Below are positions 25,298 through 30,911 of a DNA stretch of 64,000 nt, piece after piece (position 1 is the first letter of the stretch; every line of letters starts with the position of its first letter). The notes below the pieces were generated by a model, which made no database searches, was not told the origin of the DNA, and worked only from the letters and a program-made list of their open reading frames with translations. Origin of the DNA: Pseudomonadota bacterium (lineage in GTDB: Bacteria > Pseudomonadota > Alphaproteobacteria > Reyranellales > Reyranellaceae); assembly GCA_018242505.1 (NCBI GenBank), contig JAFEBU010000038.1, forward strand, positions 1-64,000, read 5' to 3'. A program made the position numbers and the translations under genes.

Positions 25298-25990
25298 CTA
25301 ATCCAGCGATTGTGGAGGCGGAGGGTCGTCCGGCGAGGAGCGTGGCGCAAACAGCCGGAGAGCGACCAGGCCGTACACGAAGCCCCCGATATGCGCCGTC
25401 CAGGCGACTGGCTGGCCGCCGGCACCGGGCGTGCCGCCGAAGATGCCAAAGAAGATATTGAGCGCGATCCAGACCGCGGCGATCGGCAGAAGCGAGGGCA
25501 TCCGCCCCACCTGCCACAACAGTACCAGCACGGCGCCGAATACGCCGCTGATGGCGCCCGATGCGCCCACCACCGGATCGACCGAGTCGGGGAACGAGAG
25601 GACATGGACGAGCGCTGCCGCGAGGCCGGCGGAGAGATAGAAGGCAACGAAGCGACGCACGCCCAGGAAGCGCTCCACTGGCGCGCCGAAGGCAGCGAGG
25701 CTCAGCATGTTCACGCCGAGATGGACCCAACCGCCGTGCAGGAACTGGTACGTGAACGGCGCCGCCACGAGCGACAGCCAATTGCCGCCCGGCTGGCCGG
25801 TATAGGCCAACGGCACCAGCCCGAACTCGAGCACGAGCCGGTCGTCGACCGGCGCGCTGAGCAGCTGGCGCAGGAGATGAACGGCGACATTGAGGCCGAT
25901 GATCCACAGGATCGCCGGCGGCAAGTTGATTGCCCGCTCGTGCGCCCCGCCATGTTCCGGTCCCTGGCGTCTCATGTCGTCGAAAGGCAT
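25298..25990 (-). CDS. Rhomboid-family intramembrane serine protease
   Basis: 230 residues with six transmembrane segments. The catalytic serine is in GASGAISGVFGAVLVLL (GxSG) and the catalytic histidine in AHIGGFVYGLVAL of the last helix; the L1 loop contains FHGGW-like FLHGGWVHLGVNMLSLAAFG. It cleaves transmembrane substrates within the inner membrane; its substrate is unknown. The gene lies downstream of the radical SAM/Lgt-like group on the same strand, 68 bp after the small membrane protein, so a joint transcript is possible. Confidence 0.9.
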   Translation of the reverse strand: MPFDDMRRQGPEHGGAHERAINLPPAILWIIGLNVAVHLLRQLLSAPVDDRLVLEFGLVPLAYTGQPGGNWLSLVAAPFTYQFLHGGWVHLGVNMLSLAAFGAPVERFLGVRRFVAFYLSAGLAAALVHVLSFPDSVDPVVGASGAISGVFGAVLVLLWQVGRMPSLLPIAAVWIALNIFFGIFGGTPGAGGQPVAWTAHIGGFVYGLVALRLFAPRSSPDDPPPPQSLD

Positions 25991-26058: not shown

Positions 26059-26319
26059 TTAGCGCTTTAGGCGGCGCGAGCCCAGCCAAAGAAAGACCCC
26101 GCCCAGGATGAGCGTCGGCGAGCCGCAGACGATGGCAATTGCGCCGCCCCCGTTGAAGGGATCGCCCTCGGTCACGGCAAAAATGCAGCCGAGCGTCAGC
26201 AGCAGGACGACGGCGCCGGACACCGCGAAGAACCAGCCGAGCGCCCGATTGGGCGGCGGAGGCTGAGGCGGACCGGGCGGCCATGACGGCGGTGGCGGCG
26301 GGCTGACAGGGTCGCTCAT
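26059..26319 (-). CDS. Small proline-rich two-helix membrane protein
   Basis: 86 residues. Residues 1-23 are almost entirely proline, serine and tryptophan (SPPPPPSWPPGPPQPPPP), followed by two hydrophobic helices (about 27-49 and 59-79) and a basic tail (GSRRLKR). No family is recognised. Its ATG overlaps the radical SAM stop codon as ATGA, so it is translated with that enzyme. A proline-rich cytoplasmic tail could serve as a docking arm, which is speculation. Confidence 0.7.
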   Translation of the reverse strand: MSDPVSPPPPPSWPPGPPQPPPPNRALGWFFAVSGAVVLLLTLGCIFAVTEGDPFNGGGAIAIVCGSPTLILGGVFLWLGSRRLKR

Positions 26320-27728
26320 CGCCGCGCTTCTGCCAGGCGCGCGTTGCCCGCCGCGCCTGGGCGATAGAAGGTGTTGTAGGTATCGAACGGGATGATGCTG
26401 CCGTCCGGCGTCACGAAGTGGATGCAGGATCGCTTGACGTTGGCGAGGCAGAAATTGAAGCGGTCGAGGAATTCCACGATCGTGATTCGGAAGACGTTCT
26501 CGTAGCCCGCGCCATCCGGCATCGGCACCTCCGGCAGGCAGCAGAGCAGCGAGCCCAGCCGCTCGGTGGTGTTGCGATCCGTCGTCGACAGCGACAGGAG
26601 ATCGACGAAGCGCTGGCGCAGCTCGGGATATTTCTCGAACGAGATGGCGTTGGGAATGCTGGGCAGCAGCGCCTCGCGCGGCACCAAGGACGTAAGCGGA
26701 ACGACCTTTCCGCTATCGCGCAGACCGTAGCCGATCGAGATCGAGGCCGGATTGCAGGGCAGCGGGATCATGTCGTCGTCAGCGAAAATGCCCGAGTCCT
26801 CGACGACGCGGCGGCGGATCTCCGACAGCACGATGCGGTTGCGTTTGGGGTCGAAGCCCTCGTTGCGCCCGGCATCCTGCACCGGCTGGAAGTTGATCCC
26901 GCGCACGCACTTGTATGTGAGCGCATGGCGCACGATGTCGCCGATCTCGCGATCGTTGACGCCGCGCTTCACCGTGCACACCAGAGTGGTCGAGATGCCG
27001 CGCGCCTCGAGATTGGCCAGCGCCTGCCGACGGATGCGCGACAGGGCAGCGCCGCGGATATCCTTCAGCGCCTCGTCGTTCAGCGAGTCGAACTGCAGGT
27101 AGACTTCGAAGCCCGGTCGCAAGGCGGCCAACGCATCGACGAACGCCGGATCCTCGGCAATACGGATGCCGTTGGTGTTCAGCATCACGTGCTTGATCGG
27201 TCGCCGGCGCGCTGCGGCCAGGATCTCGAGGATCTCGGGATGAATTGTGGGCTCGCCGCCCGAGATCTGAACGAGATCGGGTTCGCCCTCGCTCGCGACA
27301 AGCGCGTCGAACATGCGTTCGACTTCGGCAAGAGTGCGATGCGTCGTGCGCTTGGGCGAGGAGTCGGCGAAGCACACCGGACAGGCGAGATTGCACGCCT
27401 CGTTGATCTCGACGATCGCGAGGCATGAATGCTGCTCGTGGTCGGGACAAAGCCCGCAATCCCACGGGCAGCCGCGCTCGGTGCGGGTGTACGGCGCCAG
27501 CGGTCGGTCGCCCGGTTTCAGGTAGTCGAGGGTGCGCCGCCAATAGACCGGATCGTCGGACACCAGCGTCTTCATGACCCCATGCTCGGGGCAGCGCTTC
27601 AGATAGTAGATGCCGCCGTCTTCCTCGACGATCTTGGCCGGCACGAGGCCGAGGCAGGTTTCGCACAAGGACGTCGTCTGGCCGAGAAAGAGATAGGGCG
27701 CCGACTTTCGCGCTAGGCCGCCGTCCAT
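26316..27728 (-). CDS. Radical SAM enzyme, MJ0619/tetraether-synthase-like
   Basis: 470 residues from the ATG at 27728 (AGAGGGG just upstream); an upstream extension has no support. The radical SAM cluster motif is ACNLACPVCF with Cys112, 116 and 119. Extra cysteines resemble the MJ0619 family: an N-terminal CETC (22, 25) with CPEHG (46-50), then GCPWDCGLCPDHEQHSC (86-102). The C-terminal CIHFVTPDGSIIPFDTYN is also family-like. The archaeal prototype was first proposed as a pterin methylase and later reported to join lipid chains into tetraethers. It overlaps an Lgt-like gene upstream and a small membrane protein downstream. A lipid or lipoprotein substrate is inferred from context. Confidence 0.82.
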   Translation of the reverse strand: MDGGLARKSAPYLFLGQTTSLCETCLGLVPAKIVEEDGGIYYLKRCPEHGVMKTLVSDDPVYWRRTLDYLKPGDRPLAPYTRTERGCPWDCGLCPDHEQHSCLAIVEINEACNLACPVCFADSSPKRTTHRTLAEVERMFDALVASEGEPDLVQISGGEPTIHPEILEILAAARRRPIKHVMLNTNGIRIAEDPAFVDALAALRPGFEVYLQFDSLNDEALKDIRGAALSRIRRQALANLEARGISTTLVCTVKRGVNDREIGDIVRHALTYKCVRGINFQPVQDAGRNEGFDPKRNRIVLSEIRRRVVEDSGIFADDDMIPLPCNPASISIGYGLRDSGKVVPLTSLVPREALLPSIPNAISFEKYPELRQRFVDLLSLSTTDRNTTERLGSLLCCLPEVPMPDGAGYENVFRITIVEFLDRFNFCLANVKRSCIHFVTPDGSIIPFDTYNTFYRPGAAGNARLAEARR

Positions 27729-28438
27729 GAGCCCCTCTGGCTGCGGATCATCCAGAGAGCGTACAGGAGCACCGCAAGGCAGACTATATGAAAGAGGTTG
27801 AACGGCCCGATCACGGTCGCATAGGGCTTGAAGAACTCCCACACGAAGCGCTGCAGCGCGTACCAGCCGACGGTGAGATAGAATCCATTCGCAAGCCAGA
27901 ACGGATCGCGGGCCCGGAACCGCTGGATCAGAACCACGAACATCGCGGCCATTGCGAGCGATTCATAGAGCTGCACCGGATGGCGGGGAATGCCGTCGCC
28001 GAAGTCAACAGCCCACGGCAGCGACGTCGGCGTGCCGTAGGTGAAATCCGCCAGGCCCGAAAAGAAGCAGCCGAGCCGCCCGACCGCCACGGTGGCGGCG
28101 AAGGGCGCAGCGAAGGCGATGCCGGTCGAGGCCGAGACGCCCACGATGCGCTTGAACGCCTCCACCGAAGCGATGGCACCCGCGATGCCGCCCACCATGG
28201 AGAAGCCCAGAGCATGCACACCGGACAGCAACGCATTCGCCGTGCCGAAGAACATGGCGCCGCAAAGCGCGCCAGCGCCGGCGGCAACAGCGTAGGCACC
28301 CGGATAGGGCACCTTGCTCGCGGGCAGAACGTCGGCCGGCAAGAGATGGCGCGTTGTCACCCAGAACGCCGTCATCGAGGCGAGCCAGGCTGCAACATCG
28401 AAGACGGCATGAATATAAGGCAGCCCGAAGTAGATCAT
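27713..28438 (-). CDS. Lgt-like (prolipoprotein diacylglyceryl transferase family) membrane protein, divergent
   Basis: 241 residues with about seven transmembrane helices. The Lgt family is recognised from GRLGCFFSG (residues 120-128) and PRHPVQLYES (151-160). Canonical Lgt has GRxGNFxNGE: the Arg is kept (121) but the Asn, second Asn and Glu positions are Cys, Ser and Leu/Ala. The HGG motif of the catalytic His region is replaced by MVGGIAG. Length is below the usual 260-290. It is therefore unlikely to be the cell's housekeeping Lgt and may act on another phospholipid-derived substrate. Its end overlaps the radical SAM start by 16 bases. Confidence 0.75.
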   Translation of the reverse strand: MIYFGLPYIHAVFDVAAWLASMTAFWVTTRHLLPADVLPASKVPYPGAYAVAAGAGALCGAMFFGTANALLSGVHALGFSMVGGIAGAIASVEAFKRIVGVSASTGIAFAAPFAATVAVGRLGCFFSGLADFTYGTPTSLPWAVDFGDGIPRHPVQLYESLAMAAMFVVLIQRFRARDPFWLANGFYLTVGWYALQRFVWEFFKPYATVIGPFNLFHIVCLAVLLYALWMIRSQRGSWTAA

Positions 28439-28449
28439 ATGGCTGGGGG

Positions 28450-28469
28450 CGCGCGACTCCAGTCGCGCG
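28450..28469 (-). terminator. Hairpin after argG
   Basis: Arms CGCGCGAC and GTCGCGCG around a 4-base loop, 57 bp after the argG stop and just before the Lgt-like start. There is no T tract after it on the minus strand, so termination strength is uncertain. Confidence 0.45.
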
Positions 28470-28526: not shown

Positions 28527-29783
28527 CTACTTCTTCGGTCCGCCTTGTCCCAGGGCGCGCAGGCGCAGACGCAACGCGTTCAGTTTGATGAAGCCCTCGG
28601 CGTCCCGCTGGTTGTAGGCGCCCTGGTCTTCCTCGAAGGTCACATGCTGCATGGAGTAGAGAGAGTGGGGCGACTTGCGGCCGACCACCGTCACGTTGCC
28701 CTTGTAGAGCTTCAGCCGCACCGTGCCGCTCACATTCTCCTGGCTCTTGTCGATCAGCGCCTGCAGCATCTCGCGCTCGGGCGAGAACCAGAAGCCGTAG
28801 TAGACCAGCTCGGCGTACTTGGGCATCAGCTCGTCCTTGAGGTGCCCCGCCCCGCGATCGAGCGTGATCTGCTCGATGCCACGATGAGCGACATGCAAAA
28901 TGGTGCCGCCCGGCGTCTCGTAGATGCCGCGGCTCTTCATGCCGACGAAGCGGTTCTCCACGAGATCGAGCCGGCCGATGCCGTTGGCCTTGCCGAGCTC
29001 GTTCAGCCGGGTGAGCAGTGTCGCGGGCGACATCGCCTTGCCGTCGATCGCCACGGCATCGCCCTTCTCGAAGTCGATGGTGATGTAGGTCGCCTTGTCG
29101 GGCGCCTGCTCGGGCGAGATCGTCCGCTGATAGACCATCTCGTCGGCCTCTTCCCAGGGATCCTCCAGGATCTTGCCCTCGCTCGAAGAGTGCAGCAGGT
29201 TGGCATCGACCGAGAACGGCGCCTCGCCGCGCTTGTCCTTGGCGATCGGGATCTGGTGAGTCTCGGCGAACTCGAGGAGCTTGGTGCGCGACGAAAGTTC
29301 CCATTCGCGCCAGGGCGCGATCACCTTGATGTCGGGCTGGAGCGCATAAAAGGACAGCTCGAAACGCACCTGGTCGTTGCCCTTTCCGGTTGCTCCGTGA
29401 GCCACGGCATCGGCGCCGGTCTTGCGGGCGAGTTCGATCTGATGCTTGGCGATCAGCGGCCGGGCGATCGAGGTGCCGAGCAGGTACTGGCCTTCATAGA
29501 GCGCATTGGCGCGGAACATCGGGAATACGAAATCGCGCACGAATTCCTCGCGCACATCCTCGATGAAGATGTTCTCGGGCTTGATGCCCAGCATCTCCGC
29601 CTTCTTGCGCGCCGGCTCCAGCTCCTCGCCTTGGCCGAGATCGGCGGTGAAGGTCACCACCTCGCAGCCATAGGCCGTCTGCAGCCACTTCAGGATCACG
29701 GAGGTGTCGAGGCCGCCGGAGTAGGCCAGCACGACCTTCTTGATGTCACCCTTCTTGTAAGGGCCGGTATAAGAAACGCTCAT
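28527..29783 (-). CDS. argG: Argininosuccinate synthase
   Basis: 418 residues from the ATG at 29783 (GAGG about 8 bases upstream). The ATP pyrophosphatase loop [15 protein letters not shown] (about 17-31), the citrulline/aspartate segment [15 protein letters not shown], and [13 protein letters not shown] are all standard. It joins citrulline and aspartate with ATP in arginine synthesis, in the cytoplasm. No other arg gene is in the window. A longer frame upstream of the ATG overlaps the divergent methyltransferase and is not supported. Confidence 0.96.
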
Positions 29784-29879: not shown

Positions 29880-30911
29880 ATGGCCTCTTCGCTCGATCGC
29901 CTCTCCTACGCGGCTCGCCAAGCCGCCCGTGTTGCCTGGTATGCCGGTCACTATGTCGCCGGCCGGCGGCGGCTGAAGCCCATGCCCAAGCCGGATTTTG
30001 CCATCGGGCCTACGCCCAGCCGGGCCGAGATGACGACCGATATGCGGGCCCTGTTCGCGCGCGAATGGCGCGACATCGAGGCGGGTTTGCTCCCCGAGCC
30101 GCCCACGCTCAGCCCCGATCCCGGCGAATTCCTACGCCGCAGCCTGCTCTATTTCCGCGACCTGCCGAAGGTCGATGCGCGACGCCATGGCGAGGCCGAT
30201 CACGAATTGCCACCGGGCGAGCAGGGGGACGGCCTGCCCGGCTACTATCGGCAGAACTTCCACTTCCAGAGCGACGGCTGGCTCAGCGACCATTCGGCGG
30301 TGCTCTACGACACCCAGGTCGAGGTGCTGTTCACCGGCGCCGCCGACGTCATGCGCCGGCGCGCGCTCAAGCCCATCGCCGACTGGATGGCCGGCCGCAA
30401 TCAGCGCGGGCTGCGGGGCCTCGACGTCGGCTGCGGCACCGGGCGGCTGCTCGCTTTCCTGCACGGCGCCTGGCCGGGCCTCAGGCTCACCGGCCTCGAC
30501 CTTAGCGCGCCGTACCTCGCCGAAGCGCGCCGCCTGATCGGCCGCACCGCGCGCGTGAAGCTGATGGAAGGTGCGGCCGAGCAGCTCCCTTTCGATACGG
30601 CAAGCCTCGACCTCGTCGTGTCGTCCTACCTGCTGCACGAGCTGCCGCCCGACGTACGCGCCACGGCAATCGCCGAAATGGCGCGCGTCGTGAAGCCGGA
30701 TGGCCTGGTCGTGATCGTCGATTCCATCCAGCGTGGCGATCACCCCGGGTGGGATGGCCTGCTCGATCTCTTCCCGCACTATTTCCACGAGCCCTACTAC
30801 GCCGATTATGTCGGCGGCAGCGTCGAGTCATGGGCCACAGACGCGGGGCTCACCCCGCTCACCTGCGAACGCGCTTTCCTGTCGAAGGTAACGGCCTTTG
30901 TTCGGACCTAA
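29880..30911 (+). CDS. Class I SAM-dependent methyltransferase
   Basis: 343 residues. The Rossmann fold begins at [17 protein letters not shown] (about 178-194; motif I DVGCGTG), with motif II LTGLDLS and the post-motif [16 protein letters not shown] 170-residue N-terminal region of unknown role contains [20 protein letters not shown]. It resembles UbiE/COQ5-like small-molecule or lipid methyltransferases, but the substrate is unknown. A TATAAT at 29856-29861 sits about 20 bases before its ATG. It is divergent from argG. Confidence 0.8.

Follow-up and report, generated by a model that had tools for sequence, protein, structure and literature searches.

The Lgt-like membrane protein and the Tes-like radical SAM enzyme encoded together in a Reyranella genome recur side by side in distant bacteria, so they probably carry out an undescribed membrane-lipid modification. 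The best reading of the pair is that it holds neither a lipoprotein Lgt nor a true Tes. We lean, with slightly more belief than doubt, towards two enzymes that form a dedicated module for modifying a membrane phospholipid. From the lines of evidence below we infer, with good support, a membrane-lipid role for the pair.

The host is Reyranella (Alphaproteobacteria), a soil bacterium, and the window is the whole stretch of its DNA analysed here, 64,000 nt long. Three overlapping genes of the minus strand lie between a rhomboid gene and argG as follows.

25298 to 25990, minus strand: rhomboid-family protein (PF01694, 106.9 bits), the downstream flank, outside the conserved pair
26059 to 26319, minus strand: small proline-rich protein of 86 aa with two hydrophobic segments, as seen in its translation; the third gene of the Reyranella cassette
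26316 to 27728, minus strand: Tes-like radical SAM enzyme of 470 aa with the ATG at 27728, from the 7tol match, the NCBIfam scores and the 7tom superposition
27713 to 28438, minus strand: Lgt-like membrane protein of 241 aa with seven predicted helices, from the PF01790 match, the alignments and the AF2 model
28451 to 28468, no strand: inverted repeat GCGCGACTCCAGTCGCGC, exact, 18 bases, which separates argG from the Lgt-like gene
28527 to 29783, minus strand: argG (argininosuccinate synthase; PF20979/PF00764), the upstream flank, outside the module

The Lgt-like and radical SAM genes overlap by 16 bp and the radical SAM and proline-rich genes by 4 bp (ATGA). The coordinates, the strand and these end-to-start overlaps were already given by a sequence-only reading of this DNA and are all reproduced. 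That reading also took the three genes as one operon. The overlaps are real and the first two genes are a conserved pair, but the proline-rich gene occurs directly after a radical SAM gene in Reyranella loci only; its product is a genus-level accessory outside the core of the module. The inverted repeat GCGCGACTCCAGTCGCGC has a chance expectation of 0.04 matches in the window. A methyltransferase gene at 29880-30911 on the plus strand is divergent from argG, and its best NCBIfam matches, CpaM and a DVU_1556-type family, are all below the cut-off.

Among the fetched stretches, 73/79 radical SAM homologue loci contain the Lgt-like gene. Of the six others, two (L096 and L100) are from other branches and four are cut off by a contig end, so that their sequence starts within the radical SAM gene. 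The neighbourhood survey, a check proposed with the sequence-only reading, thus finds the pair conserved in other genomes and across phyla, namely in Pseudomonadota, Bacteroidota, Planctomycetota, Bacillota and one MAG labelled as Nanoarchaeota. In the sampled Bacteroidota, Bacillota and Planctomycetota, the Lgt-like gene is just upstream of nearly every close homologue, either overlapping it or a few hundred bases off.

The gene order varies around the pair. The radical SAM gene is followed by an ICMT-type methyltransferase gene, DUF4395 and the Lgt-like gene in Clostridia, Bacteroidota and the Nanoarchaeota-labelled MAG, and directly by the Lgt-like gene in Planctomycetota and one Bacillota locus. 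In two small alphaproteobacterial genomes, genes for small membrane proteins separate the radical SAM gene from the Lgt-like gene, and a relative of the ICMT-type methyltransferase comes last. The methyltransferase that joins the operon in some relatives is of the membrane ICMT/phospholipid-methyltransferase type (PF04140/PF04191). A larger conserved operon was sought, and neighbours beyond the pair are supported in few loci with none conserved across genera. That two proteins of membrane-lipid type travel together across genera with no other conserved neighbour suggests a self-contained modification of a common lipid.

The association was counted over 385 evenly sampled alphaproteobacterial genomes, with E 1e-40 or better for the radical SAM enzyme and E 1e-25 or better for the Lgt-like profile (7 genomes). 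The radical SAM enzyme is found in 6 genomes and all 6 have the Lgt-like gene nearby, while one (G1212) of the 379 genomes without the enzyme has a truncated Lgt-like frame of 187 residues. Fisher's p is 1.6e-12 by a statistic that ignores relatedness, and we conclude from this sample that the pairing is not chance.

The two proteins also share a history. In quick trees made without bootstrap, the 55 rows of the main Lgt-paired radical SAM clade are set apart from the TrsS-type and Tes sequences with an SH-aLRT of 100, and 60/60 paired Lgt-like proteins share a single clade that excludes the canonical Lgts, with an SH-aLRT of 99. The rest of the latter clade are re-fetched genes of the carrier genomes and one unpaired Chloroflexia gene. 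The distances of the two proteins correlate over 60 pairs with r = 0.74, to which shared ancestry contributes, and 0/2000 permutations are as high.

Within Reyranella, the three genes are present or absent as one cassette, flanked by argG and the rhomboid gene. Of the 65 genomes of the genus, 18 have a close radical SAM homologue, complete or truncated at a contig end, and the gap from argG to the rhomboid gene is 19-155 bp in the cassette-free genomes read, including the close relative G052. Two genomes keep scars. In G013 (L269 1694-1981), the beginning of an Lgt-like gene, interrupted by a stop codon, is joined to a remnant of the proline-rich protein, and in G050 (L243 1414-1488), such a remnant lies between argG and the rhomboid gene. 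Hence these lines, at least, have lost the three genes together. The rhomboid protein was considered as a module partner and set aside, since its gene is in 62/65 genomes of the genus and most of these lack the cassette. At one Reyranella locus (L010:2679-3845), a single open frame covers both the proline-rich protein and the rhomboid.

A few genomes depart from the pairing. The Bacteroidota genome G231 has the radical SAM and Lgt-like genes on different contigs and keeps both. Two points count against the module: the Reyranella genome G069 (L229, L230) keeps the Lgt-like gene, as two copies next to argG and the rhomboid gene, and lacks both the radical SAM and the proline-rich gene, and in two Planctomycetota a radical SAM gene of the paired clade is present with no Lgt-like gene found.

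The Lgt-like protein scores 72.2 bits against PF01790, the LGT family of Pfam, above the gathering cut-off of 24.9, and 23.5 bits against TIGR00544, the lipoprotein Lgt model, below the curated cut-off of 118.9. Its AF2 model (pLDDT 90.3), for which the input alignment was made of window and locus sequences, superposes on E. coli Lgt (5azb) with a VIA Z of 12.9 over 222 residues, the next best being 6.3. This Z is only moderate for helical bundles and is backed by the sequence profile of the subfamily, which recovers 5azb at E 6.7e-13. E. coli Lgt is missing from the best matches of Foldseek by itself, and VIA did find 5azb. The superposition and the profile match agree with the previous claim that the fold markers of Lgt are kept.

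The residues divide into two sets. R121, Y193, R197 and E201 align with R143, Y235, R239 and E243 of E. coli Lgt, whereas H103 is replaced by V, N146 by C124, E151 by L and Arg246 by Lys. The signature is GRLGCFFSGL where E. coli Lgt reads GRLGNFINGE, just as the sequence-only reading had noted for the Asn and Glu of the GRxGNFxNGE motif, and His103 is gone too. The loss at H103, N146 and E151 is common to every paired Lgt-like relative aligned; most canonical Lgts of the same genomes retain H103 and the Asn at 146. Throughout the subfamily, R121, Y193 and R197 are invariant and E201 is nearly so, and K96 and C124 are invariant residues particular to it.

In E. coli Lgt, R143, Y235, R239 and E243 line the donor-lipid (PG/DAG) pocket, H103 is the proposed activator of the lipobox thiol, and PG is bound by E151 at the first site. 

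Mutants of the E. coli protein at R143, Y235, R239, E243, R246, H103 and E151 are inactive (PMC4728403, also for the pocket and the roles of H103 and E151), and N146A is without activity (PMC8689077). Thus the Lgt-like protein is possibly inactive, as H103, N146 and E151, each needed for activity in E. coli Lgt, are replaced and Arg246 is now Lys, a change that by itself inactivates the E. coli enzyme. It might then be a non-catalytic membrane partner that presents the phospholipid while the radical SAM enzyme alone does the chemistry. The tight pairing would fit a physical complex of this kind, but the invariance of R121, Y193 and R197, the near-invariance of E201 and the subfamily's own K96 and C124 suggest kept chemistry, and we consider a purely presenting role unlikely. 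C124, at the N146 position, is a possible covalent acceptor.

In its fold and its PG-pocket residues the protein is alike to E. coli Lgt, but it forms its own clade and has a canonical Lgt alongside. The possibility that it would prove to be the only Lgt does not hold in the Reyranella genome, where a separate canonical Lgt scores 252 bits, and the same coexistence is seen in the remaining alphaproteobacterial carriers that were searched. In two Clostridia MAGs and the Nanoarchaeota-labelled MAG, which are small genomes and maybe incomplete, nothing but the Lgt-like gene matches LGT. This branch scores as LGT in Pfam yet is probably not a lipoprotein-lipidating enzyme.

Could the module still modify lipoproteins, the Lgt-like protein attaching lipid to a particular cysteine protein whose lipid or peptide the radical SAM enzyme alters? 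The Lgt family membership, the rhomboid protein after the cassette in Reyranella and the isoprenylcysteine-methyltransferase-like protein in some operons speak for it. However, the HGGL-type thiol/peptide site is lost, the genome has its canonical Lgt, the rhomboid is genus-wide and present without the cassette, and no neighbour gene is conserved across genera. The absence of the thiol-activating His103 and the PG-filter Glu151 from all paired proteins aligned, and of any lipoprotein or peptide gene conserved beside the pair, weakens the lipoprotein role, which we regard as improbable. The sequence-only reading had left membrane-lipid and lipoprotein modification side by side; the conservation across phyla and the grouping of the radical SAM enzyme with the Tes-type enzymes uphold the former, and the latter has lost ground.

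The radical SAM enzyme has Tes (GDGT-MAS, MJ0619) as its nearest solved relative, with 7tol matched at E 1e-67. Its AF2 model (pLDDT 84.7) superposes on Tes 7tom with a VIA Z of 44.3 and an rmsd of 2.5 over 407 residues, the next being 19.9. Much of region 355-403, shorter than in Tes, is at low model confidence, so a second lipid pocket is only hypothetical, a point against the module. By its place with the Tes-type enzymes, the enzyme does not belong to a branch of known non-lipid function, an outcome that had been named as a refutation of the lipid pathway.

Tes has a hydrophobic tunnel that holds two lipids and four metal sites, the fourth being the C-terminal auxiliary cluster, which is central to its chemistry and proposed to park the substrate radical (PMC9433317). 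Three of the four sites are kept here by motif: the rubredoxin-type site (C22-x2-C25-x20-C46-x2-H49), the N-terminal [4Fe-4S] site with its His (C87/C91/C94/H97) and the radical SAM cysteines (C112/C116/C119). The C-terminal domain is also shared but its cysteines are rewired, with C325, C396/C397 and C435 as candidate cluster ligands and D449 where Tes has cysteine, the Tes ligands being taken from residues common to two Tes sequences. Over 50 sequences representing the main paired clade, C325, C396 and C397 never vary, C435 is kept in 49/50 and position 449 is D or E in 49/50. The equivalent of the labile Met439 of Tes, a residue taken from PMC9433317, is V418 in the Reyranella protein and M in 23/50. 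We read C325, C396/C397 and C435 as the putative new ligands of a re-liganded cluster. The cysteine layout of the MJ0619 group, claimed previously, is therefore right for the first three sites and differs at the C-terminal one.

It is doubtful that the enzyme is a strict bacterial synthase of tetraether or membrane-spanning lipids that couples two chain ends as Tes does. Tes is by far the nearest solved structure, and bacterial Tes homologues have been proposed for brGDGT synthesis by Zeng et al. (PMC8941075). Nevertheless, the score against Tes (NF045702) is 277.9 bits, below the curated equivalog cut-off of 450, the clade is separate from Tes, and position 449 and Met439 are not kept. The enzyme also differs from Tes in lacking the insertion after residue 325 and in having an Lgt-like partner. 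The low score and the re-liganded cluster leave the tetraether synthase label unsupported. The re-liganded cluster is a reason not to assume Tes-type coupling.

By sequence, the top NCBIfam match is the TrsS radical SAM (seleno)protein (NF045646) with 308.5 bits, but this is below the cut-off of 490 and TrsS falls in another clade. In the TrsS-type loci fetched, the stretch read is free of Lgt-like genes, and the TrsS-type rows retain the cysteine at 449 (18/18). The Mss membrane-spanning lipid synthase and Ger also give bacteria altered membrane lipids by a radical-SAM route but are reported as a different enzyme set (PMC11868695), a distinction made here by description only.

The N-terminal domain matches PF23545 (HMPTM), named after an old pterin-methylase annotation, and an ArsP-type permease is beside one Bacillota locus. 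These would suit a pair whose substrate is a cofactor-like or pterin-like small molecule other than a lipid and whose membrane protein serves as carrier or permease. The membrane protein has the Lgt fold, however, and the pterin role, for which no corroboration could be obtained, was considered unlikely on the basis of the MJ0619 structure (PMC9433317), so we hold a small-molecule substrate to be very unlikely.

In the favoured two-enzyme module, the membrane-embedded Lgt-like protein would bind a phospholipid via the Arg/Tyr/Glu pocket with which Lgt activates its diacylglyceryl donor, and would hand the lipid to an acceptor other than the lipobox cysteine. The donor-pocket residues kept and the thiol site lost point to a different acceptor or to a lipid-presenting role. 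The radical SAM enzyme would generate a 5'-deoxyadenosyl radical, which would abstract hydrogen from an acyl or alkyl chain in the Tes-like hydrophobic pocket, and would couple or otherwise functionalise the chain via the re-liganded C-terminal Fe-S cluster. Homology, folds, the pairing with its co-inheritance and co-variation, the loss as a block and the residues kept and lost are observed here, while we infer that both enzymes act on the same lipid and that the Lgt-like protein is catalytic, as well as its acceptor, the sequence of the steps and what they yield. Judged by residues, the predicted Lgt-like enzyme could be inactive, and the Tes cluster ligands and Met439 are not kept; both speak against the module.

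A bolder and less likely version is an undescribed bacterial pathway in which the Lgt paralogue would move diacylglyceryl to a non-cysteine acceptor and the Tes-like enzyme, with its re-liganded auxiliary cluster, would link or functionalise the chain ends. It would give a cross-linked or membrane-spanning lipid in mesophiles such as Caulobacter, Sphingomonas and Novosphingobium.

That bacteria have Tes homologues is already known (PMC8941075, PMC11868695). The 456 reported are proposed brGDGT makers (PMC8941075), and activity has been confirmed for no bacterial one (PMC11868695). Our literature searches, with most subscription journals outside their coverage, returned no description of the Lgt-like/radical SAM pair, which is thus probably undescribed. 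One large branch of the bacterial homologues now gains a partner protein and a residue-level reason against the Tes label. If it is true that the pair alters lipid chains, the surveys counting bacterial Tes homologues as brGDGT producers must split this branch off. The partner protein, the residue evidence and the culturable carriers (Caulobacter, Sphingomonas, Novosphingobium) make the function testable by gene deletion and lipid analysis.

Several minor observations accompany the survey. In a Bacteroidota locus (L211:7995-10255), a rhomboid gene comes after a radical SAM gene of the paired clade, the Lgt-like partner being on another contig (L272), and in a Bacillota locus (L214:10172-11822), the Lgt-like gene is followed by a permease gene of the ArsP_1 family. 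Tandem or clustered Tes-like radical SAM genes, with no Lgt-like neighbour in the stretches read, are seen in Planctomycetota (G735:C132, G756:C299, G814:C218 and G840:C15) and Bacillota (G629:C39). One Reyranella genome (G039, L221) has a different Tes-like radical SAM enzyme, ~40% identical, that groups with that of the Chloroflexia locus L096, where a class I methyltransferase-like gene adjoins the radical SAM gene.
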